Of a stretch of 64,000 nt of DNA, positions 13,244 through 26,882 are shown piece by piece. The translations under genes and the position numbers were made by a program. The stretch covers positions 992,001 through 1,056,000 of the forward strand of contig NZ_CP018888.1 in the NCBI RefSeq assembly GCF_001936335.1. The letters are read 5' to 3'. This DNA is from Amylolactobacillus amylophilus DSM 20533 = JCM 1125 (GTDB lineage: Bacteria > Bacillota > Bacilli > Lactobacillales > Lactobacillaceae). Position 1 is the stretch's first letter, and each line of letters opens with the position of its first letter. The notes beneath the pieces were generated by a model, which saw only the letters and a list, made by a program, of their open reading frames with translations, ran no database searches and was not told the DNA's origin.

Positions 13244-13271
13244 AAACTGGCAAAATTTGTCAGTTTTTTTT
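13244..13271 (+). terminator. Terminator of the flavoprotein operon
   Basis: Stem AAACTGGCAAA / TTTGTCAGTTT followed by a run of eight T at 13264-13271. Confidence 0.8.
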
Positions 13272-13318
13272 GTTTTCCCACTAATCCAACACTTCCTCTC
13301 ATCCCAACGACCAAACAA
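13264..13318. repeat. Left copy of a ~55-bp direct repeat flanking the CRISPR-Cas locus
   Basis: Begins in the terminator T-run and continues GTTTTCCCACTAATCCAACA, then CTTCC, a variable hexamer, CCAACGACCAAACAA. The second copy is at 26829-26882 with about four mismatches, on the far side of the cas genes and array. No third copy was seen in the window. Confidence 0.8.
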
Positions 13319-13339: not shown

Positions 13340-13750
13340 TTGCCTCATGATAATAACCAACAGCAAAATATTGAATATTTAAAGTGGAATAAGTTGATGC
13401 CAATTACTTCGGCTTCATTGAAGTATACATTTGACATTGATAATATCGACAAGCCGAGTGCAAGCAGTGAGATTGGGATGCTGATTGAAGAAGAGTATTT
13501 CTATCGGTTTGGTCTTGAAACGAGCAATCGGGTAAGTGAGATTTATTATTCAAAATGTCTGCATTCAGTGATCCTCGGTGATGGCGATTCTATTGGTAAG
13601 CTAGATTGGGCAAAACCGCTCTTTGCTTATGCCAATAAACATCATTTGCGGCCTACCGGTAAGTTACTCACATCGTTAATTTTTGTTAACATTGATCAAG
13701 TTACGGGTAAGACAGTTTGTTGTGATGAGGTTTGGTTGCCGTTAAAATAA
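13340..13750 (+). pseudogene. GyrI-like effector-binding domain, DNA-binding part missing
   Basis: About 136 residues from TTG 13340. The pattern YSKCLHSVILGDGDSIGKLD, then PLFAYANKHHLRPTGKLL and DEVWLPLK, fits the GyrI-like small-molecule-binding domain that forms the C-terminal half of MerR- or AraC-type regulators. No HTH precedes it and there is no ribosome-binding site. The sequence before it is the direct repeat, so this looks like a regulator cut off at its N-terminus where the flanking repeat sits. It might still be a stand-alone binding protein. Confidence 0.45.
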
Positions 13751-13765
13751 GTTAATAGTTAAGTT

Positions 13766-13804
13766 GGTTCTAAGACACTAAATGAATGTTTTAGAACCGT
13801 TTTT
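13766..13804 (+). terminator. Terminator upstream of the cas promoter
   Basis: GGTTCTAA (13766-13773) pairs with TTAGAACC (13791-13798), followed by GTTTTT. It insulates the cas promoter from upstream transcription. Confidence 0.75.
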
Positions 13805-13815
13805 GTAGGTATATA

Positions 13816-13843
13816 TTTACAAAATTTTATATGCAAATATAAC
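13816..13843 (+). promoter_or_regulatory. Promoter of the cas operon
   Basis: TTTACA (13816-13821) and TATAAC (13838-13843) are each one base off consensus and are 16 bp apart. A start near 13850 would give a short leader to the cas3 ribosome-binding site at 13901-13910. It is the only good promoter between the upstream terminator and cas3, and the eight cas genes follow without gaps. The -10 hexamer lies inside the sequence matched by the crRNA-like RNA at 26744-26836. Confidence 0.65.
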
Positions 13844-13846
13844 GTT
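13833..13846 (-). promoter_or_regulatory. Predicted Cascade target (PAM plus seed) in the cas promoter
   Basis: On the minus strand the sequence reads AAC followed by GTTATATTTGC. The pseudo-spacer of the crRNA-like RNA reads GTTATGTTTGC from base 26776, so 10 of 11 bases match and the mismatch is at position 6. Extending to 20 bases gives 15 matches, then pairing ends. A bound Cascade would cover the -35 and -10 elements. Confidence 0.65.
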
Positions 13847-13915
13847 CAAAAAAACGCTTGCAAATTAATGGGGAAGAAGTATACTGAATTCATAAAGAAA
13901 TTAGGGGGTGTTTTA

Positions 13916-16687
13916 TTGAACTGTGATAATTTAGATCCAAAAGTCGCCGCTTTGTGGGCAAAAAAAGGAACGTCTTCAACTGGTGAACCCGTGTGGCTCC
14001 CCCTGCTTGCTCATCTCATCGATACTGCCAATGTCATCAACGCACTCTATAATCATTGTCTTAGTGATGGGCAACGTGCATTACTTGTATCTGACGGTCA
14101 GGATGAGGAATCCGTACGGCAGACAATCCAATTCATCGGTTTTATACATGACTTAGGAAAGGCTACCGCCGTTTTTGAGCGAAAACAATCATACGACCAC
14201 AATGCTGAATTAGACCAAGCTGTATTGGAGCATTTAATCAGAGCTGGTTTTACTGGACTAGATACTGCGGTAATTGCTCATAAGAACGAATCACCTCATG
14301 CACGTGCTGGCGAAGCGCTATTAGAAAAATTTGGCGTATCCAGCACTATTGGCGCAATTATTGGCGGTCATCACGGGAAACCTGAAAAAGGACCACCTAA
14401 AAATGACATTTGTGATTTCACAGCTAATTATTTTCAAGATGATGGCAATAAATTGATTCAACAAAAGTGGCAAGATGTTCAGAAAGAGATCTTGGAGTTT
14501 GGTTTGAATTATGTTGGACTGAATAGTGTGCAGGAATTGGCTGATTTTTCGCAGAAGCAATCCGTTATCGTTGAGGGACTGCTTATTATGGCTGACTGGT
14601 TGGCCTCAAGTGAGTATTTGGAAAATAATCGCTCTGACCATCCACTATTTCCGCTAATCGCTGTGGATGAAACTATTGCCAATATCGACTTTGATACTCG
14701 ATTCAAGAATGCTTGGTTAGCCTGGACCACAACTGATGAACCAATCTTACAACAGATAAAAACGAGCAATGATCCATATTTTGATTTTTGGCACTTCCAT
14801 GCTCGTAAATTCCAGACTCTTGTTACGGAAGCAATTGATAAAGCTGTTGATCCGAGTCTTGTAATTATCGAGGCACCGATGGGAGCTGGGAAAACAGAAA
14901 TTTCTCTGGTTGCTGCACAACAGTTGGCATTTCGTCAAGGCGAAATGGGCTTATATTATGGATTACCTACCCAAGCTACGTCCAATGCGATGTTTGAGCG
15001 AATAAAGGATTGGCTTGACCAGCAGAGTAAAAAAAGCGGTCTGAAAAATTCAATTAAGTTAATGCATGGGCGAGCTGAGTTTAATGAATCATATCGTGCA
15101 CTACCTAATGCGACCGGTGTTGATAATCAATCTGGAGCGGTGGTTAATAGTTGGTTCAGCGGAAAGAAGTCAATTCTTGATGAATATGTTGTTGGAACAA
15201 TTGATAACCTGCTTCTTTTTGCACTCAAGCAAAAGCACCTTGCACTGCGTCACCTGGGTATGAGCAGAAAGGTGGTGGTAATTGATGAAGTCCATGCTTA
15301 TGATACCTACATGAATGTTTACCTTGACAGAGCACTTGAGTGGCTTGGTGCCTATCACGTCCCTGTTGTGATGCTTTCTGCTACGCTACCCGCAGCAAGA
15401 AGAAGAGACTTGGTTTTGAAGTATTACAAAGGAAGATTTGGTGCCAAAAAATATCTTGAGGAGAAAGAAGCTACCAATAGCTGGCAAAAAAATATTGCTT
15501 ATCCCTTGGTCACGTTGCTTGATGGTGATAGAGTTCAACAATTTAGCGAAACGCCTACACCGGAACAGCGAAAGCAAGTTGAAGTTGAGTTGATGAGTGA
15601 TGAGCTGGCAGATTTAGTATCCTCCGTTCTTGAAAAGACAGCGGATGGCGGAGTTGTGGGTGTGATTGTCAATACCGTTGCAAGAGCACAAGCAATAGGA
15701 TATGAACTAGATGGTAAGGCCCCAACTTTGGTTCTCCATTCAGCATTTGTTGCGACCGAACGGACAAAAATTGAAAATGAACTGCTGGAAAAGATTGGCA
15801 AAAATGGTCAAAGACCTGAAAAGCTCGTAATCATTGGGACTCAGGTGCTGGAGCAGTCTTTGGACATAGACTTTGACATTCTGTACACCGACTTGGCGCC
15901 AATGGATCTAATTCTTCAACGCGTTGGCCGCCTACAGAGACATCAAAATAAACGTCCTAAACAACTAAGCACACCACAATTAGTTGTGATGGATGGAAGC
16001 TTTAGTCACTTAGGAGAATTTAATGAGGGATCTGAGGCTATCTATGGACGATATCTATTAATGAAAACAAGGTATTATCTGCCACAGGTCCTTAATATAC
16101 CTGCGGATATTCCGCGGTTAACACAGCTAGTTTACGATGAAGTGGATGATGCATTGAATGGGGAGATTGATGGCCTACAGGAAGCTAAGAAAAAAGAGGC
16201 TCAGGTGTCAGCCGAATTAGAAAAAAAGGCCGGGGTATATCCAATTGATCCACCTAGTTATGTTAGAAATAAATCTATTCACGGCTGGCTTGATAATCCT
16301 AAAGCTATCTTTGATGATGAAATGGCTAGCCGGTCGGTGAGAAATATCGTGCAAGATTCAATTGAAGTTTTAGTTCTCAAGAAAGATAGTGAGGGTCAAA
16401 TTTTCTTGTTGGATGGGACAAAGATTGTGAATGAAAACTTGCATATCCAAGCCAAAGCTATTGCCATGCAGATTCTTCGTCTCACGGTTTCTTCATATAA
16501 AATAATTGATACTATCAAAATTTTAGAGAAATTCACGAGAAGCCAGTTTCCTGATTGGGCGGATAATAAATGGCTACGTGGAGCATTAGCTATTGTTTTA
16601 GATGAACAAAACGAAGTCGAAGTGGGGGGGGTTAGGTATCGTTATTCAACAAAGTTTGGCTTAACAAAGGAGAGAATAAATGGATAG
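13916..16687 (+). CDS. cas3: Cas3 helicase-nuclease (type I-E)
   Basis: 923 residues if translation starts at TTG 13916, which has GGGGGTG at correct distance; ATG 13868 in the same frame lacks any such site. The HD nuclease part shows FIHDLGKATAVFE and GGHHGKPEKGPP. The helicase part shows Walker A EAPMGAGKTEIS, motif II VVIDEVHAYD, motif III MLSATLPAARR and motif VI LILQRVGRLQRH. It is recruited by target-bound Cascade, nicks and then shreds the displaced strand. First gene of the operon, overlapping cse1 by 8 bases. Eight consecutive G at 16624-16631 near the 3' end are a possible slippage site. Confidence 0.95.
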   Translation: MNCDNLDPKVAALWAKKGTSSTGEPVWLPLLAHLIDTANVINALYNHCLSDGQRALLVSDGQDEESVRQTIQFIGFIHDLGKATAVFERKQSYDHNAELDQAVLEHLIRAGFTGLDTAVIAHKNESPHARAGEALLEKFGVSSTIGAIIGGHHGKPEKGPPKNDICDFTANYFQDDGNKLIQQKWQDVQKEILEFGLNYVGLNSVQELADFSQKQSVIVEGLLIMADWLASSEYLENNRSDHPLFPLIAVDETIANIDFDTRFKNAWLAWTTTDEPILQQIKTSNDPYFDFWHFHARKFQTLVTEAIDKAVDPSLVIIEAPMGAGKTEISLVAAQQLAFRQGEMGLYYGLPTQATSNAMFERIKDWLDQQSKKSGLKNSIKLMHGRAEFNESYRALPNATGVDNQSGAVVNSWFSGKKSILDEYVVGTIDNLLLFALKQKHLALRHLGMSRKVVVIDEVHAYDTYMNVYLDRALEWLGAYHVPVVMLSATLPAARRRDLVLKYYKGRFGAKKYLEEKEATNSWQKNIAYPLVTLLDGDRVQQFSETPTPEQRKQVEVELMSDELADLVSSVLEKTADGGVVGVIVNTVARAQAIGYELDGKAPTLVLHSAFVATERTKIENELLEKIGKNGQRPEKLVIIGTQVLEQSLDIDFDILYTDLAPMDLILQRVGRLQRHQNKRPKQLSTPQLVVMDGSFSHLGEFNEGSEAIYGRYLLMKTRYYLPQVLNIPADIPRLTQLVYDEVDDALNGEIDGLQEAKKKEAQVSAELEKKAGVYPIDPPSYVRNKSIHGWLDNPKAIFDDEMASRSVRNIVQDSIEVLVLKKDSEGQIFLLDGTKIVNENLHIQAKAIAMQILRLTVSSYKIIDTIKILEKFTRSQFPDWADNKWLRGALAIVLDEQNEVEVGGVRYRYSTKFGLTKERING

Positions 16688-18395
16688 GAAATCATATAAT
16701 CTTTTAACCGAGCCATGGATTAAGGTGTTAGCAAAAGATTCAGGCGACACGGTTAGTGTCTCGTTGATTGATGTATTACAAAACGCACGTCAGTACGAGA
16801 GGCTCGCTGGTGAAATGCGGGTACAAGATTTTGCCATCATGCGAATTTTACTTGCTATATTGACAACAGTGTATTCGCGGTTTGATGCACAAGGAGAGGG
16901 CTACAACTGGCTTGACTACGATTCGAATGGTTATCAAGTTACTAGGGTGAAAATCTTTGAGGACGATCAACGTCAAGAACTACTTGATTCCTGGAACCAG
17001 ACGTTTACCAGCGGTAGTTTTAGCCGAAAAGTATTTGATTATCTGAATGAATACAGTAATCGTTTTGACTTCTTGGGCGAACATCCTTTTATGCAGGTAA
17101 CACATGATGAATATAATAGTCTTGTTTCTGCTGACAAGAAGATAGAAAAAGGTAGTGGACAAGTTTTAATTAAACAAATCAATCGTTCTATTTCCGAAAG
17201 TGGTAATACATCATTCGTCTTCTCCCCAAAAAGTAATGATGAAAAGGATAAAATCGATTTGCCAGAGTTGGTTAGATGGGTGATTACTTATCAAGGCTTA
17301 ACGGGAGTGACAGACAAAACGAAGGTCCAGTCTAAGGAAAAATATTCAATCAGCCCTGGCTGGCTGTTTCAAATCAGTCCGGTTTTTATTCGCGGATCAG
17401 ACTTATTTCAAACTCTTATGCTTAATTTGCTTTTGTTTAACCCAAACCACCAAGGTGAATTTAATTTACAAAAACCGATTTGGGAAGAAACGAATTTACT
17501 CAGTTACGCAGAGTTGCGCTTATCAAATATTTTTCCAAATGATATTGCTGGACTATATACTTCTCTTTCGCGAATGCTACACATTAGTTGGAAAGATGAA
17601 GGTCCACAAATCTTTAGTGCTGGACTACCTAAGCTTGATATCGAACAAAATCCATTTGAGCCAATGACGACCTGGAAGAAAAACAAGGATAAGAAAAGGA
17701 ACATCGATTTTGTGCCAGCAGTCAAGAGTAAGTGGTCAATCAGCAAGGCTATGTGGAGAGATTTTGGTCAATATGTTGGAACTGACTACAGCGGAAATGA
17801 GGTAGAGCCGGGTATAATTGCTTGGTTACGACAATTAAAAAATAACGGTTATATCGATGATTCGTTTCACGTCAATGTTAGTTCGGTTTCGTTTATTAAT
17901 GACGGAAACGCAACTTCACAATTACCGGTGGAAGAGATTCATGGAGAATTATCTCTTTATGCGGATGTTTTGTTCGATGATGATATTGCTGGAAGGTGGA
18001 CTGTACGCATCGAAAAAATAGTTGAACAGATTGAAAATGTCGGCAAAATGTACTATGGATTTTTGTCCAATATTAATGGACTCGAGGGCGGCAAGGGACA
18101 AGCTTCAGACCATGAAATGGGTCAATTCTACGATCTTCTGAACCAACCCTTTGAAAGTTGGTTGAACAATATTCATGCTGATGATAATCGAGATATGAAA
18201 GAACTAGAGTGGCGCAAAACACTCTGGGAGCTTGTCCAAAACTTGGCAAAATCACAAATGGATTCTGCTACATCAAAGGTTATCAGAGGAAAAGTGGAAG
18301 ATCAGGTTCAAACAAATATTTTTACTATATACAACTCTTTTATGCGAAGAGTATGGAATTCGTTAGAATTGGAGGTGTTTAAGAATGCCAAATAA
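16680..18395 (+). CDS. casA: Cascade large subunit Cse1 (Cas8e)
   Basis: 571 residues, N-terminus MDRKSYNLLTEPWIKVLAKD typical of Cse1/CasA. The family's length (500-570) and its place directly after cas3 agree. In Cascade it recognises the PAM and recruits Cas3. It overlaps cas3 and cse2 by 8 and 11 bases, indicating coupled translation. Because the array suggests an AAY motif, this subunit may have PAM preferences different from the E. coli AAG type. Confidence 0.93.
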   Translation: MDRKSYNLLTEPWIKVLAKDSGDTVSVSLIDVLQNARQYERLAGEMRVQDFAIMRILLAILTTVYSRFDAQGEGYNWLDYDSNGYQVTRVKIFEDDQRQELLDSWNQTFTSGSFSRKVFDYLNEYSNRFDFLGEHPFMQVTHDEYNSLVSADKKIEKGSGQVLIKQINRSISESGNTSFVFSPKSNDEKDKIDLPELVRWVITYQGLTGVTDKTKVQSKEKYSISPGWLFQISPVFIRGSDLFQTLMLNLLLFNPNHQGEFNLQKPIWEETNLLSYAELRLSNIFPNDIAGLYTSLSRMLHISWKDEGPQIFSAGLPKLDIEQNPFEPMTTWKKNKDKKRNIDFVPAVKSKWSISKAMWRDFGQYVGTDYSGNEVEPGIIAWLRQLKNNGYIDDSFHVNVSSVSFINDGNATSQLPVEEIHGELSLYADVLFDDDIAGRWTVRIEKIVEQIENVGKMYYGFLSNINGLEGGKGQASDHEMGQFYDLLNQPFESWLNNIHADDNRDMKELEWRKTLWELVQNLAKSQMDSATSKVIRGKVEDQVQTNIFTIYNSFMRRVWNSLELEVFKNAK

Positions 18396-19008
18396 GATTA
18401 GAAATAAAGCAGATAGGATTATCACGGCAATTCAAGCCGACGCAAAACCAGACAAGGGGGCGCTTGCGGCGCTCAGGACGTCAAAATCAATTACTGATCC
18501 TGGAGCTACAGTTGTCTGGCCTTACATTCTTGCAAACCTTGACGAACAAGATTTGAGCAGAACAGGCACGCCTACACGAGAAGAAATAGCTGTTTATACC
18601 GCGATTCGTCTCTATGCTATTTACCAACAAGGTGTAGAACAGTTACTCTATACTCCTTATTACAAACGTAATGATGGGGACAAAACACTAACGTTGTTTC
18701 AGGCAATGGCAGGAATTCAGAATGCTGGAGATGATTCTACAGCTTTGAGACGGCAAATTACTCAGGTCCTAGCTACGACGAATTTTGAAACAACAATCAA
18801 TTCTTTGACACGACTTGTAGGTGTGTTGAAGGGTAAAAAAACGGGTGCTGTTGTAGATTTTGCACAATTAGCGGAAGATATATTTTGGTATCAAACAGGC
18901 TATAAATCTGCAAATAAAGTCCGTTTGCAGTGGGGGCAAGATTTTTATCGTAGTTTTGATCAGCTAGAAAAGATGACAAATCAGGAGGAAAATAACAATG
19001 CAAAATAA
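18385..19008 (+). CDS. casB: Cascade small subunit Cse2
   Basis: 207 residues, basic and helical, with the Cse2 pattern near residues 45-75 (VVWPYILANLDEQDLSRTGT, then EEIAVYTAIRLYAIYQQG). Two copies normally line the belly of Cascade and stabilise the R-loop. It overlaps both neighbours by 11 bases. Confidence 0.9.
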   Translation: MPNKIRNKADRIITAIQADAKPDKGALAALRTSKSITDPGATVVWPYILANLDEQDLSRTGTPTREEIAVYTAIRLYAIYQQGVEQLLYTPYYKRNDGDKTLTLFQAMAGIQNAGDDSTALRRQITQVLATTNFETTINSLTRLVGVLKGKKTGAVVDFAQLAEDIFWYQTGYKSANKVRLQWGQDFYRSFDQLEKMTNQEENNNAK

Positions 19009-20074
19009 GAATCTTTATATCGATATTCACGTGCTACAAAGCGTACCTGCAGCAAACATTAACCGTGACGACGCAGGATCGCCAAAGACAGTTTATTATG
19101 GTGGAACATTACGATCACGAGTATCTTCTCAGAGTTGGAAGAACGCGATGCGAGCAGATTTTAATCTAAATCCGTTAAGCGATAACCTGGGAATTAGATC
19201 AAAAAAGGTTCTGGCAAGACTAGCTAAGTTACTTGTGGATCAAAAAGCGGATATTTCGTTAGAAGATGCTCAAAAAATGGCCGAAAAGGCATTGGACACC
19301 ATTGGAGTTAAAAAATCAACTGACACACTTTTGTTCATTAGCCAGTGGCAGTTGAACAACTTGGTCAAACTGATCTTGAGTGAAGAGGGATTAGAGCAAT
19401 TTGACAAGAAGGAATTGAAGAAAGCCTTCATGGAAAATAATTCATTGGATTTGGCTCTTTTTGGGAGAATGGTTGCAACAAACCCAGAATTAAATGTCGA
19501 AGGTGCATCTCAGGTAGCCCATGCCTTTTCGACACACGAAATAGTACCGGAGTTTGATTTTTATACTGGTAGAGACGATCTGCAGGAAGAAAACAACGCC
19601 GGAGCTGGTATGATGGGGACAATTGAGTATAATTCTTCGACTCTTTATCGCTATGCTAATGTAAACGTCAGAGAACTGAGTGAAAATCTTCAAGGAGAAC
19701 AACTTACGGAGAGTATTGAAAAATTCGTGCAGAGCTTCATATTGTCGATGCCAACCGGTAAACAAAATAGTTATGCCAATAAAACTCTTCCTAATTACGT
19801 GTTGGTCACTATTCGTGATGATACACCTGTTAATCTTGCCTCAGCATTTGAAGAACCTGTTAAATCAAAATCTGGTTATCTGACTCAATCAATTAAAAAA
19901 TTGGAGCAAGAGTTTACTGAGACTGAAGCTTTTGTGGATAAACCAGTTAAAACCCTTGTGTTAACGACAAAGGAATCTTCAATTTCGCAAAGAACTAATA
20001 GTTTAAATGAGTTATTGAATCAAGTAGCTCAAACGATTGTAGAGGTAGGTAGCTATGAAGACAGTAACAATTAG
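18998..20074 (+). CDS. casC: Cascade backbone subunit Cas7e
   Basis: 358 residues. It opens IDIHVLQSVPAANINRDDAG and continues GTLRSRVSSQSWKNAMR, the RAMP signature of Cas7e, and has the central GMMGTIEYNSSTLYRYANVN. Six copies form the crRNA-holding backbone; the thumbs flip out every sixth guide base, which is the structural reason a mismatch at guide position 6 is tolerated. AGGAGG precedes the ATG. Confidence 0.95.
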   Translation: MQNKNLYIDIHVLQSVPAANINRDDAGSPKTVYYGGTLRSRVSSQSWKNAMRADFNLNPLSDNLGIRSKKVLARLAKLLVDQKADISLEDAQKMAEKALDTIGVKKSTDTLLFISQWQLNNLVKLILSEEGLEQFDKKELKKAFMENNSLDLALFGRMVATNPELNVEGASQVAHAFSTHEIVPEFDFYTGRDDLQEENNAGAGMMGTIEYNSSTLYRYANVNVRELSENLQGEQLTESIEKFVQSFILSMPTGKQNSYANKTLPNYVLVTIRDDTPVNLASAFEEPVKSKSGYLTQSIKKLEQEFTETEAFVDKPVKTLVLTTKESSISQRTNSLNELLNQVAQTIVEVGSYEDSNN

Positions 20075-20774
20075 GTTGGCTGGTCTTTTACAATCATATG
20101 GTAGTGAAGCAAATTTCAATTACAGAACGACACTCGGTTATCCGTCTAAAAGTGCGGTAATTGGAATGATTGCAGCTGCTTTTGGCTATGAGCGCGATAA
20201 TCCGGCTATTAATAGATTAAATAATCTGGCTTTTGCCGTTAGAATAGATCAGCCAGGACGAGCATTACAGGACTTTCAGATGGTTCATATGCAAAAAGGT
20301 AAGCAAATTCAATCAAAAATAACTTATCGAGACTATCTACAAGATGCTGTTTTCGTGGTGGCTATTGGTAGTGAAGATTCTGAATTGATTGAAAAAATCC
20401 AATATTCGTTGAGACATCCAAGATTCTCGTTATTTCTTGGCCGACGGGCGAACGTTCCTGGTGGTATGTTGCAAACCAAAGTGTATGAAGATACAACACC
20501 AATTAATATACTTGATAGTCTTCAATGGCAGGCTGCCAAGTGGTTTCAAAAAAAGCAAAAAAAGCAAGATAAAGTTCAAGTTGATATCGTCGCTGATGCG
20601 AACCTTTTACCGGATCAAAGATACTATCTTCAAAAGGATAAAGTTGTTTCTTTTTCTCAAAAGAGTCGCCAATTTGAGTTTCGGAGAATTGCGGAGAAGT
20701 CGATTGAGTTGATAAATCCTCAATTTGAGAAGCTGGGTTGGGATACGGAACACGACATCATGAATTTTTTATAG
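20055..20774 (+). CDS. casD: Cascade subunit Cas5e
   Basis: 239 residues starting MKTVTIRLAGLLQSYGSEAN with TTLGYPSKSAVIGMIAAAFG, characteristic of Cas5e. It caps the 5' handle of the crRNA. It overlaps the end of cas7e by 20 bases. Confidence 0.93.
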   Translation: MKTVTIRLAGLLQSYGSEANFNYRTTLGYPSKSAVIGMIAAAFGYERDNPAINRLNNLAFAVRIDQPGRALQDFQMVHMQKGKQIQSKITYRDYLQDAVFVVAIGSEDSELIEKIQYSLRHPRFSLFLGRRANVPGGMLQTKVYEDTTPINILDSLQWQAAKWFQKKQKKQDKVQVDIVADANLLPDQRYYLQKDKVVSFSQKSRQFEFRRIAEKSIELINPQFEKLGWDTEHDIMNFL

Positions 20775-20789
20775 TAGGAGGTGAAATAG

Positions 20790-22387
<1,598 letters not shown>

Positions 22388-22390
22388 TTG

Positions 22391-23275
22391 ATGATTGTTA
22401 TTACGTTAACGAGCGTTCCTCCGGCCTTGCGTGGTGAGTTATCTAAGTGGTGTCAAGAAATCCAGGTAGGAATTTTTGTTGGCAATCCTAGTGCGAGAAT
22501 TCGTGATTTATTGTGGGACAAAATAGTAGATAATGTAGGACAGGGACGAGCGACAATGGCATTTAATGCACGCAATGAATTTGGTTATCAATTCCGAACT
22601 ACCAATCGCTACTATGAAGTTAGAGATTATGATGGGATTCCATTACTTGTCAAGGTTAAAGATGCTACCCCTCTTATCAAAGTGGGCTATAGTGATGCCG
22701 CAAAATTTAGGCGTGCAGCAAAGTTTTCAAAGCAAAAACAACGTAGTGAGCCACCAGACGTTTCGTTTGTGGCAATTGATATTGAGACAACTGGTCTAGA
22801 ACCTGATACTGATAAGATTATTGCTATTGGTATGGTCAAGATTAATCACGGTGTTGCTGACAATCCAAAACAAATTCTAATTAAAATTGACGAGCCACTC
22901 TCAGATGAAATAATTAAATTAACTGGATATACAAACAAATGGTTGGAGACTGAAGGAGTTGATATTGTTAGCGCATTAAGTAGATTTGTAGATACTGTTG
23001 AAAATTTACCAATTATCGGATTCAATGTAAACTTCGATATCAATTTTATCAACAAAAATTTGATTGAAAATGGTATGTTGAAAGTAGAAAATGAAATTAC
23101 TGATTTGAGAACAGTGGTGAAGAAAAATGAACTGTTTTTGAATAATTATCGGTTAGAGACAGTTCTGGCAAAATATGGTATTGAAAATATTAACCCACAT
23201 CATGCGGAATCAGATGCGCTGGCAACGGCAAAGCTTGCGGATCAACTCATAAAAAATAGTTTACTATATTTTTAG
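22391..23275 (+). CDS. cas2: Cas2 fused to a DnaQ-like (DEDDh) exonuclease
   Basis: 294 residues. ATG 22391 is preferred to TTG 22388 because GGAGG at 22378-22382 lies 8 bases upstream. Residues ~1-95 are type I-E Cas2 (MMIVITLTSVPPALRGELSK). A linker leads to a DnaQ exonuclease from ~125: FVAIDIETTGLEPDTDKIIA (D-x-E) and the C-terminal HHAESDALATAKLAD (H-x5-D). Fusions like this are known in some Streptococcus and Lactobacillus type I-E loci, where the nuclease trims prespacer 3' ends before integration. The gene ends 28 bp before the first repeat, so the CRISPR leader must overlap its 3' end. Confidence 0.94.
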   Translation: MIVITLTSVPPALRGELSKWCQEIQVGIFVGNPSARIRDLLWDKIVDNVGQGRATMAFNARNEFGYQFRTTNRYYEVRDYDGIPLLVKVKDATPLIKVGYSDAAKFRRAAKFSKQKQRSEPPDVSFVAIDIETTGLEPDTDKIIAIGMVKINHGVADNPKQILIKIDEPLSDEIIKLTGYTNKWLETEGVDIVSALSRFVDTVENLPIIGFNVNFDINFINKNLIENGMLKVENEITDLRTVVKKNELFLNNYRLETVLAKYGIENINPHHAESDALATAKLADQLIKNSLLYF

Positions 23276-23303: not shown

Positions 23304-26300
23304 GTTTTCCCCGCACAGGCGGGGGTGATCCTATTGCAAAGACCGCTACTGAAGCGCGGCCGGTGTTTTCCCCGCACAGGCGGGGGTGATCCTGTTGTAA
23401 AAGCTAACGCCGTTAATAGGTTAGAGTTTTCCCCGCACAGGCGGGGGTGATCCCGGCGCCGGCTACTATGTATACTTTGAACCGTTGTTTTCCCCGCACA
23501 GGCGGGGGTGATCCCGGTAGACCAAGTTATTATTTTGGTGAAAAAGGGTTTTCCCCGCACAGGCGGGGGTGATCCCGCGGTAGGCCGTGCTAGGTATGAC
23601 AACGGCGCGTTTTCCCCGCACAGGCGGGGGTGATCCTCTCATAGTGCCCGTTTTTCTTATATATTGCTTGTTTTCCCCGCACAGGCGGGGGTGATCCTCT
23701 CCACCACTCGCTTAAACTTCGTCTCATCACGTTTTCCCCGCACAGGCGGGGGTGATCCCACTAAAAGCAGTCCCGGTACCATAAGATATTGGTTTTCCCC
23801 GCACAGGCGGGGGTGATCCTTGTATTATATAAATATAGAAGAGAGCAGGAGAGTTTTCCCCGCACAGGCGGGGGTGATCCCCATTCCTCCAAAACGAAAA
23901 ATGGTCGGAGTTCGTTTTCCCCGCACAGGCGGGGGTGATCCTACATGGTTTTCACAAACTCATACATTGTTCTCGTTTTCCCCGCACAGGCGGGGGTGAT
24001 CCTATGTTACGCCATCATCAATATCATCAGGGAACGTTTTCCCCGCACAGGCGGGGGTGATCCTAGTAAGGGCATCGTCAGAGCTCGCAAAGATGGGTTT
24101 TCCCCGCACAGGCGGGGGTGATCCTCTTTTTAGCCAATTGCACTTGCGTAATGCGTTGTTTTCCCCGCACAGGCGGGGGTGATCCTCAACATTAACCTTA
24201 ATCTTTGTCATTTAAAGCGTTTTCCCCGCACAGGCGGGGGTGATCCCACTCAGGAGTACCTAATAAAACAGATTAGTCCGTTTTCCCCGCACAGGCGGGG
24301 GTGATCCTTATCCACGGGCGTTGCGTTGTCATCAGGATTAGTTTTCCCCGCACAGGCGGGGGTGATCCCAGGCTTGTTATTTAAGGGGGTTGGTTGGCTA
24401 TGTTTTCCCCGCACAGGCGGGGGTGATCCTACTGATTTGTCTTGTGGCGTTATCAGCGTTGCGTTTTCCCCGCACAGGCGGGGGTGATCCTTTATCAAAG
24501 AGGTACCCACAAAGAGAGGATGAGTTTTCCCCGCACAGGCGGGGGTGATCCTTAAAAAGGCAAACCTCAATCTGGAGGTTAAAAGTTTTCCCCGCACAGG
24601 CGGGGGTGATCCTAATTTCTGTCAAACAATTTATATTAGTTGTTGGTTTTCCCCGCACAGGCGGGGGTGATCCTTCATGAGGGTGTAGACCGTTCGACAG
24701 TCAATGGTTTTCCCCGCACAGGCGGGGGTGATCCTCATTTCATCTTGGCAGGCTCTGCAGGCTTGATGTTTTCCCCGCACAGGCGGGGGTGATCCTTGTC
24801 TTCCCCCCTTGGCGTAATTTTGAAGTTTGTTTTCCCCGCACAGGCGGGGGTGATCCTGCCGCATCGACATCTACCTTGTTTTGCGTAATGTTTTCCCCGC
24901 ACAGGCGGGGGTGATCCCACTAGTGGTTCTTGTAATGGTAGCTTGACCGAGTTTTCCCCGCACAGGCGGGGGTGATCCTAAATAATTTCCTCTACTCTAT
25001 CAGACGTCTGTGTTTTCCCCGCACAGGCGGGGGTGATCCCCATCGCTTCCTATTATACTTTTAACACCATCGGTTTTCCCCGCACAGGCGGGGGTGATCC
25101 TGATACATTGAACCCGTCTGATTTAATGAAACAGTTTTCCCCGCACAGGCGGGGGTGATCCCATGGTCGTTTTAACGGCGGACGCCGTTATCGAGTTTTC
25201 CCCGCACAGGCGGGGGTGATCCTAATTCCTTTAAATCGTTATAGCCCGTGTAGTCGTTTTCCCCGCACAGGCGGGGGTGATCCTTGCTAATCCATGGCAT
25301 ATCAATACCGACAATTGTTTTCCCCGCACAGGCGGGGGTGATCCCTAGTATCTAAACCATAGTAGTTTAGTGTTTTCGTTTTCCCCGCACAGGCGGGGGT
25401 GATCCTAGATATTGTAAGAGAGATAGAGAGAGGGAGAAGTTTTCCCCGCACAGGCGGGGGTGATCCCGTAGCTTAAAACCTGCTGAATAGTGCCAGACCG
25501 TTTTCCCCGCACAGGCGGGGGTGATCCTCAAGTTAAAAGCTGATGGTTCAAAGGTGGATAGTTTTCCCCGCACAGGCGGGGGTGATCCTCCGCGCAATGA
25601 TTTAACAGGTGCAGAGGTTAAGTTTTCCCCGCACAGGCGGGGGTGATCCTCATACGGGCCGGCGTGTGTGTAGTCGCGCGGGGTTTTCCCCGCACAGGCG
25701 GGGGTGATCCTCATGATAATTCAAAAGTTTTTGAAATGTTTACGTTTTCCCCGCACAGGCGGGGGTGATCCCTCCAACTAAAAATTGGATTATCGGAGTT
25801 AAAAGTTTTCCCCGCACAGGCGGGGGTGATCCTCAGGGGTCTAGCAGCAAAGCCACGGCTCAGTAGTTTTCCCCGCACAGGCGGGGGTGATCCTCGCCAG
25901 AGCATTTCTAATTTTCGTGTTGGCAGGTTTTCCCCGCACAGGCGGGGGTGATCCCAGCAAGCAAGGCTATTATCGACTATGCGTTTAGTTTTCCCCGCAC
26001 AGGCGGGGGTGATCCTTACAACCGCTTTTACGGCATTTATGCATAATCGTTTTCCCCGCACAGGCGGGGGTGATCCTAAGTGTTCGATAAATTTACCTAG
26101 ATTTTCAAAGTTTTCCCCGCACAGGCGGGGGTGATCCTTGTGCTAGGCTGGTTGCAGATATTTGTAAGCGGTTTTCCCCGCACAGGCGGGGGTGATCCTA
26201 CCGCCCACTTGATGATGTGATATGCCTTGTCGTTTTCCCCGCACAGGCGGGGGTGATCCTCCACTCAACACCACCAATTCTGCCTTGCACGAGTTTTCCC

Positions 26301-26561
26301 CGCACAGGCGGGGGTGATCCTATTCATTATCTTGCCATGTGTAATATGCATCAGTTTTCCCCGCACAGGCGGGGGTGATCCTAGCACAGTATAAATAATT
26401 AGGAGGTCATTCAAGTTTTCCCCGCACAGGCGGGGGTGACTGATCAAGTTGAGTGATAAATTTGCGGTTTTCAATGTTTTCCCCGTACAGGCGGGGGTGA
26501 TCCTTGGTGCCGGAATATTTCAAATCTGATTTTTTAGTTCCCTGTATATACGGGGTGATTC
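23304..26561 (+). CRISPR. Type I-E CRISPR array, 54 repeats, 53 spacers
   Basis: 28-bp repeats beginning GTTTTCCCCGCACAGG and ending GGGGGTGATCC recur at an exact 61-bp period from 23304, so every spacer is 33 nt. Orientation is that of the cas genes. The repeat hairpin is CCCCGC-ACAG-GCGGGG. Repeats 1-51 appear uniform; repeat 52 (26415) has an altered 3' end (CTG), repeat 53 (26476) one substitution, and repeat 54 (26537) is strongly degenerate, marking the old, leader-distal end. The base after each repeat is T (38) or C (14) in 52 of 53 cases, the exception following damaged repeat 52. So the real repeat is best described as 29 bp with a PAM-derived pyrimidine at its end. Confidence 0.99.
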
Positions 26562-26728: not shown

Positions 26729-26737
26729 TGCTATAAT
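26729..26737 (+). promoter_or_regulatory. Extended -10 promoter of the crRNA-like RNA
   Basis: TGCTATAAT is a consensus extended -10 element. No good -35 hexamer is seen at 16-18 bp, which extended -10 promoters can do without. The predicted start near 26744 is only about 3 bases before the degenerate repeat. Confidence 0.75.
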
Positions 26738-26743
26738 ACTAGG

Positions 26744-26836
26744 GTGGTTTTCCCCGCATACGCGGGTGTGATCCTGTTATGTTTGCTAATTTAATACATA
26801 TCCAGGTTGTATTCCCCGCATTTGCGGGTTTTTTTG
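26744..26836 (+). ncRNA. crRNA-like RNA: degenerate repeat, pseudo-spacer, repeat-derived terminator
   Basis: The first degenerate repeat, 26747-26774, differs from the array repeat at only three positions: two in the hairpin loop (13 C to T, 15 G to C) and one at the stem base (21 G to T). The 8-nt 5' handle GTGATCCT is kept exactly. The pseudo-spacer is 26775-26808 (34 nt, or 33 counting the T as repeat base 29). The second degenerate repeat, 26809-26836, keeps the hairpin CCCGC-ATTT-GCGGG, but the handle is replaced by seven T, making it an intrinsic terminator. The ~90-nt product is shaped like a crRNA and should load into Cascade. Its guide start matches the cas promoter -10 region. Confidence 0.75.
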
Positions 26837-26882
26837 TTTTCCCACTAATCCAACACTTCCCCCAATTCCAACGACCAAACAA
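26829..26882. repeat. Right copy of the ~55-bp direct repeat flanking the CRISPR-Cas locus
   Basis: Same sequence as 13264-13318 with about four differences, all in the variable hexamer and next to it. As on the left side, it starts in the T-run of a terminator, here the one ending the crRNA-like RNA. Confidence 0.8.

Follow-up and report, generated by a model that had tools for sequence, protein, structure and literature searches.

A lone crRNA-like unit at 26747-26836 of the stretch analysed here (the window, 64,000 nucleotides of the Amylolactobacillus amylophilus DSM 20533 genome) is, judging by its sequence, very probably a gene of the CreR type, which would act as a self-limiting switch on the cas genes. 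The first-pass annotation had proposed a self-repression loop at this locus, and that interpretation is supported by the sequence comparisons described here. As described in the excerpts of the sources cited, CreR resembles a crRNA and, through partial complementarity, brings the effector to a cas promoter, in systems of types I-B, I-E, and V-A, generally without a toxin gene (PMC13131331; PMC12737573; PMC12948488).

The CRISPR-Cas system of the window is of type I-E, with Cse1, Cse2, Cas7e, Cas5e, Cas6e, Cas1e, Cas2e, and Cas3 all recognized by profile models, thus a complete set. Each of these proteins but Cas3 passes the curated cut-off of its type I-E model, while Cas3 is called via the models of its Cas3' and Cas3'' domains, above cut-off, with the full-length model PRK09694 scoring below its own. 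On the plus strand, the order is cas3 (13916-16687, with a TTG start deduced from AGGGGG (13903-13908), the listed open reading frame beginning at 13868), the Cascade genes cse1, cse2, cas7, cas5, and cas6 (16680-21440), cas1 and cas2 (21443-23275), and the CRISPR array (23304-26503), which has 53 regular repeats of 28+1 nt at a spacing of 61. Cas2 (22388-23275) carries a fused DnaQ-like 3'-5' exonuclease domain. At base 29, the array repeats have T in 38 cases, C in 14, and A in one; with a pyrimidine in 52 of the 53, the repeat is best taken as 28+1 bases, and an array motif of AAY fits. After the array, a degenerate repeat is present at 26534-26561, about 58 nt from the start of the last regular repeat and nearly in step. 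The whole CRISPR-Cas region, along with the guide unit, is bracketed by a 54-bp direct repeat (13265-13318 and 26829-26882, 93% identical), and a 76-bp query around this repeat recovers only two copies in the genome, both flanking the CRISPR-Cas region; recombination between the copies would delete the entire system. An open reading frame of 136 amino acids (13340-13750) sits in the interval that separates the flanking repeat from the cas promoter, and neither Pfam nor NCBIfam yielded a match for it under the limits applied.

The unit itself, as is the case for CreR, lies outside the array and consists of degenerate repeats around a guide, all on the plus strand. The first repeat, psi-R1 (GTTTTCCCCGCATACGCGGGTGTGATCC, 26747-26774), begins 243 nt beyond the last regular repeat, is identical to the array repeat at 25 of 28 positions, keeps the handle GTGATCC, and has a T as base 29. 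The guide (26776-26808) is 33 nt long (32+1), and its first 11 bases, GTTATGTTTGC (26776-26786), are found nowhere else in the window. The second repeat, psi-R2 (26809-26836), matches at 18 of 28 positions, keeping the hairpin and carrying a T run in place of the handle, and it is also scored as terminator-like by the scanner, with a stem at 26815-26828. A putative promoter is recognized by eye in the extended -10 element TGCTATAAT (26729-26737), with no good -35 element and a predicted start near 26744, at the repeat; this element is absent from the output of the consensus promoter scanner. For the 95-nt RNA of the unit, the predicted fold is better than those of all 200 shuffles, but in it the two repeats pair with each other, in place of a crRNA-like hairpin for each, a point against the reading. 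The 33-base guide has no match in the phage collection searched, nor does the 151-base unit in the plasmid collection, and thus these collections provide no evidence of an ordinary immune target.

The target of the guide lies upstream of cas3, on the minus strand (13812-13843, 32 nt). Guide positions 1-11 match GTTATATTTGC (13843-13833) at 10 of 11 positions, the sole mismatch being at position 6, exactly as previously noted, and the three bases that precede the site, 13846-13844, read AAC, a PAM-like motif compatible with the AAY of the array. Partial complementarity to the cas promoter next to a PAM is what CreR guides display, and here it is seen for the cas3 upstream region. The pairing was said to fade after some 20 bases; recomputed, it amounts to 15 of 20 over positions 1-20 and to none of 12 over positions 21-32. 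With position 6 ignored, this is the only 10/10 match in the 64 kb besides the guide itself, and the combined pattern of AAY and seed, AAYGTTATNTTTGC, is found once in the window (shuffle mean 0.00) and once in the genome of 1,610,352 bases. The guide and the promoter region are both AT-rich, thus a resemblance by chance has to be considered, and ordinary array spacers do at times reach such a score at their own cas3 upstream regions (10/10 with an AA motif in 2 of 2047). Against it, a 10/10 match with AAY arises in just one of 6000 dinucleotide shuffles of 13526-13945, where composition predicts 9e-5, the site is unique in the genome, and guide-target pairs are found in 14 of 72 usable type I-E loci versus 0.5 expected. 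We consider chance extremely unlikely, and this reading is strongly disfavoured. The shuffle test is stricter than the earlier rough estimate of 0.002, made before the PAM was required. The 53 array spacers of the window itself score at best 8/10 against 13526-13945.

Another possibility is accidental self-targeting, by an old trailing spacer that derives from the cas promoter and has decayed since, and the position of the unit, behind the old array end, in the same orientation and after the degenerate repeat at 26534-26561, fits such an origin. However, a decayed 32-base spacer would be expected to keep scattered similarity throughout, while positions 21-32 match at none of 12; the unit carries a terminator and an extended -10 element; the start of psi-R1 is 271 nt from the start of the last regular repeat, which is no multiple of 61; and 13 relatives display a similar seed-only pattern. 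We find this origin very improbable. An equally improbable proposal places the unit in a CreTA module, as the CreA antitoxin that keeps a small toxin RNA, CreT, in check. The anatomy is certainly alike, with a lone unit and two degenerate repeats, and in the excerpt of the CreTA source CreA likewise has degenerate repeats and a guide that sends Cascade to a promoter (PMC9458426). Repeat degeneration is described there as common to ectopic repeats. The promoter that CreA represses is that of a small toxin RNA (PMC9458426, in excerpt), while no such target was revealed here by the seed searches made: the sole 10/10 AAY target in the genome is the one upstream of cas3, and none of the six 9/10 sites in the window is within 3 kb of the unit. 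These searches, at 10/10 with AAY genome-wide and at 9/10 within 3 kb, thus detected no adjacent toxin-RNA promoter target.

If the unit is of the CreR type, guide and cas3 upstream region should co-vary in relatives, and a lack of such co-variation had been named as grounds for rejecting the loop. Loci were fetched by Cas1, the best 80 of 132 relatives being taken, 81 loci with the window. A usable cas3 upstream stretch is present in 72 of these, the window included; in the other nine (L002, L041, L042, L054, L056, L057, L059, L063, and L071) the best cas3 match is absent or starts after residue 40. A hit was defined by a guide placed after 29 repeat bases, an exact seed with position 6 free, AAY, a handle, and a hairpin. 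Under this strict rule, 15 of the 72 loci have a lone guide that fits the stretch upstream of their own cas3, and 14 of these are counted, the window and 13 relatives, compared to a mean of 0.5 of 72 over 10 rounds of shuffled upstream regions (these shuffles preserve base composition only). The fifteenth, L051, was rejected as a pair, its guide lying behind a standard array repeat and being probably an ordinary spacer, most likely a chance match. Co-variation is thus observed, in 14 of 72 loci. The remaining 58 loci, 57 without a hit plus L051, have no usable pair, and most relatives therefore neither back nor contradict the proposed loop. The 14 pairs have 14 distinct seeds. Of the 13 counted relatives, 11 are named as Lactobacillaceae, while L045 and L062 are named as Faecalicatena and Kineothrix. 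The anatomy of the unit, the match, its rarity, and this co-variation in some relatives are all read directly in the DNA.

One telling example is presented by the sister loci L069 and L081, with Cas1 proteins 99% identical, whose guides differ at positions 1, 7, and 10, and whose targets are changed at the same positions 1, 7, and 10, to the same letters, amounting to three paired changes. In both (L069:2223-2272; L081:2234-2285), the target is just downstream of a TATAAT that is itself upstream of the guide unit, and, as their layout suggests, the RNA in these two loci may repress the very transcript that carries it, which cas3 possibly shares. Another example, from outside the 72, is L112, found via DNA similarity to the unit of L022, with a further distinct seed: its guide fits its own cas3 upstream region over positions 1-16, with mismatches at 6 and 12 only, some 680 nt from the guide. 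Swapping points the same way. Among 209 repeat-like candidates outside arrays, 12 reach 10/10 with AAY at their own locus, versus one of 14,839 pairings when the same candidates are swapped to other loci. Matches at 9 or 10 positions that failed the strict rule (L006, L007, L015, L018, L019, L036, L040, L052, and L065) were left uncounted, as were second candidates in L069 and L081; L006, L036, and L040 may be real. A 28-nt repeat with the guide directly after it, one base early, was also tried and discarded: with it the signal is mostly hidden, and it appears with the 29-base reading, the guide starting one base later because the base after the 28-nt repeat is the PAM-derived T or C. The guides fall into two length classes: one of just 20-22 nt before the second repeat, in L010, L020, L022, L024, L073, L076, and L112, and one of about 32-33 nt, to which the window and several other loci belong. 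Among 397 genomes of the family, DNA similar to the unit is matched in at least 37, mostly, by query range, on the repeats or the terminator end. The short loci retained from these matches, L085-L091 (about 3 kb), show no guide-target pair, and most probably stop short of the cas3 promoter. The nearest genome of the same genus, G001 (65% complete), has no match to Cse1 or to either flank of the CRISPR region, and thus provides no close sister of the window's locus for comparison.

The 14 pairs also carry a signature of type I guides. In a type I-E guide every sixth base is flipped out. Under the exact-seed rule positions 1-5 and 7-11 match by selection, and the informative positions are the unscored ones: a match is present at position 6 in 2 of the 14 pairs and at position 12 likewise in 2 of 14, compared to 12 at position 13, 10 at position 14, and 9 at position 15. 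The first two flipped-out positions, 6 and 12, are thus revealed by natural sequences alone. Position 18, the third base expected to be flipped out, departs from this pattern, with matches in 9 of 14 pairs compared to only 3 at position 17, and this counts against the reading.

As to the promoter that would be controlled, there are two candidates. P1 (13816-13843, plus strand), read directly, consists of TTTACA (13816-13821), a 16-nt spacer, and TATAAC (13838-13843), and is missing from the output of the scanner, which demands a T at position 6 of the -10 box. P2 (13858-13885, plus strand), which the scanner did report, consists of TTGCAA, 16 nt, and TATACT; it is outside the target, between it and the probable cas3 start (TTG 13916), and nearer than P1 to the cas3 ribosome site. 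An R-loop was predicted to span TTTACA and TATAAC, and both are indeed fully within 13812-13843. The claim that the guide hits the -10 box of its own cas promoter stands in part: the site does cover TATAAC, but P2 supplies a second candidate -10 box. Should P2 be the main promoter, only weak or indirect repression would be expected. The positions of targets in relatives vary widely: across the 14 loci the target starts 3-33 nt before the estimated cas3 start in 4 (L010, L045, L068, and L073, therefore too close for promoter occlusion), 61-81 nt in 5, including the window at 73 nt, and 188-277 nt in 5. Promoter occlusion and roadblock may both occur among the loci. Between P1 and P2, the target positions of relatives do not decide.

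These observations bear on a variant compatible with a CreR-type guide, in which an upstream or partial block at P2 results in weak tuning instead of a switch, an outcome that we regard as possible, though doubtful. It draws on the closer position of P2 (13858-13885) to the cas3 ribosome site, on the spread of target positions in relatives, and on the excerpted data from Escherichia coli, where off-target Cascade binding at partial matches left the expression of local genes unchanged (PMC5904413), and thus a 15/20 match need not repress, which also counts against the switch. On the other hand, the -35 and -10 boxes of P1 both lie within the target, and the targets of L020, L024, and L112 likewise extend to a TGCTATA(A/C)T element.

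For the self-limiting switch we infer the following course of transcription, processing, binding, repression, and relief. From its own extended -10 promoter, the unit would produce a short RNA that Cas6 and Cascade would handle like a crRNA. Loaded Cascade would recognize AAC and the 11-base seed upstream of cas3, opening an R-loop within 13812-13843, and with the pairing stopping near position 20, Cas3 would have no licence to cut. In E. coli, as far as the excerpt of the source goes, Cascade binding is not reduced by mismatches at positions 19-32, with priming then at background, and interference and priming require more than 18 bp (PMC5904413), in support of binding without cutting for this guide. 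Bound Cascade would then hinder transcription of the cas operon, and the promoter would be released when Cascade is scarce, occupied by array crRNAs, or disabled by anti-CRISPRs. As the guide gene is located behind the array, in the same orientation, read-through from the array might also produce the guide, although we think this unlikely; the level of the repressor would then rise with array transcription. If true, read-through and crRNA competition would together make up a controller with two inputs, coupled to the size of the array, in contrast to promoter-side CreRs. One relative, L073, also has its guide unit downstream of the array.

The published CreR loop, as excerpted, is the one proposed here, including relief by crRNA load and anti-CRISPRs (PMC13131331; PMC12737573). 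No second 10/10 AAY seed target is present in the genome, toxin coupling having been looked at by seed searches alone. The class being already known, this unit is, by its sequence, probably a further CreR case. It differs from CreR, as the latter is given in excerpts of reviews, by its place past the end of the array, at a distance of 12,933 nt from its target. In the counted relatives the guide is within 240 nt of the target in 12 of 13, with L073 at 13,882 nt, and all 13 guides read the cas3 strand, while the guide of the window reads the minus strand; the distal position and the minus-strand reading are thus what is unusual about it among the counted relatives. A search of the literature that did not include the text of what is reportedly the primary CreR paper (Liu et al., 2023, Cell Host Microbe) found no published report of this particular unit. 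A further case of autoregulation is that of SpyCas9, which is guided by a long-form tracrRNA. There, too, the effector represses its own expression, with relief by anti-CRISPRs (PMC13131331, in excerpt), but it is a single-protein effector of type II.

Overall, the locus presents a concrete, testable candidate for autoregulation in a type I-E system, in a bacterium whose nearest Cas1 relatives point to the Lactobacillaceae. Guides and cas upstream regions drift together in 14 of 72 loci, every seed being different, and the position of the unit beyond the array suggests that a regulator of this kind can be separated from the promoter it would control.
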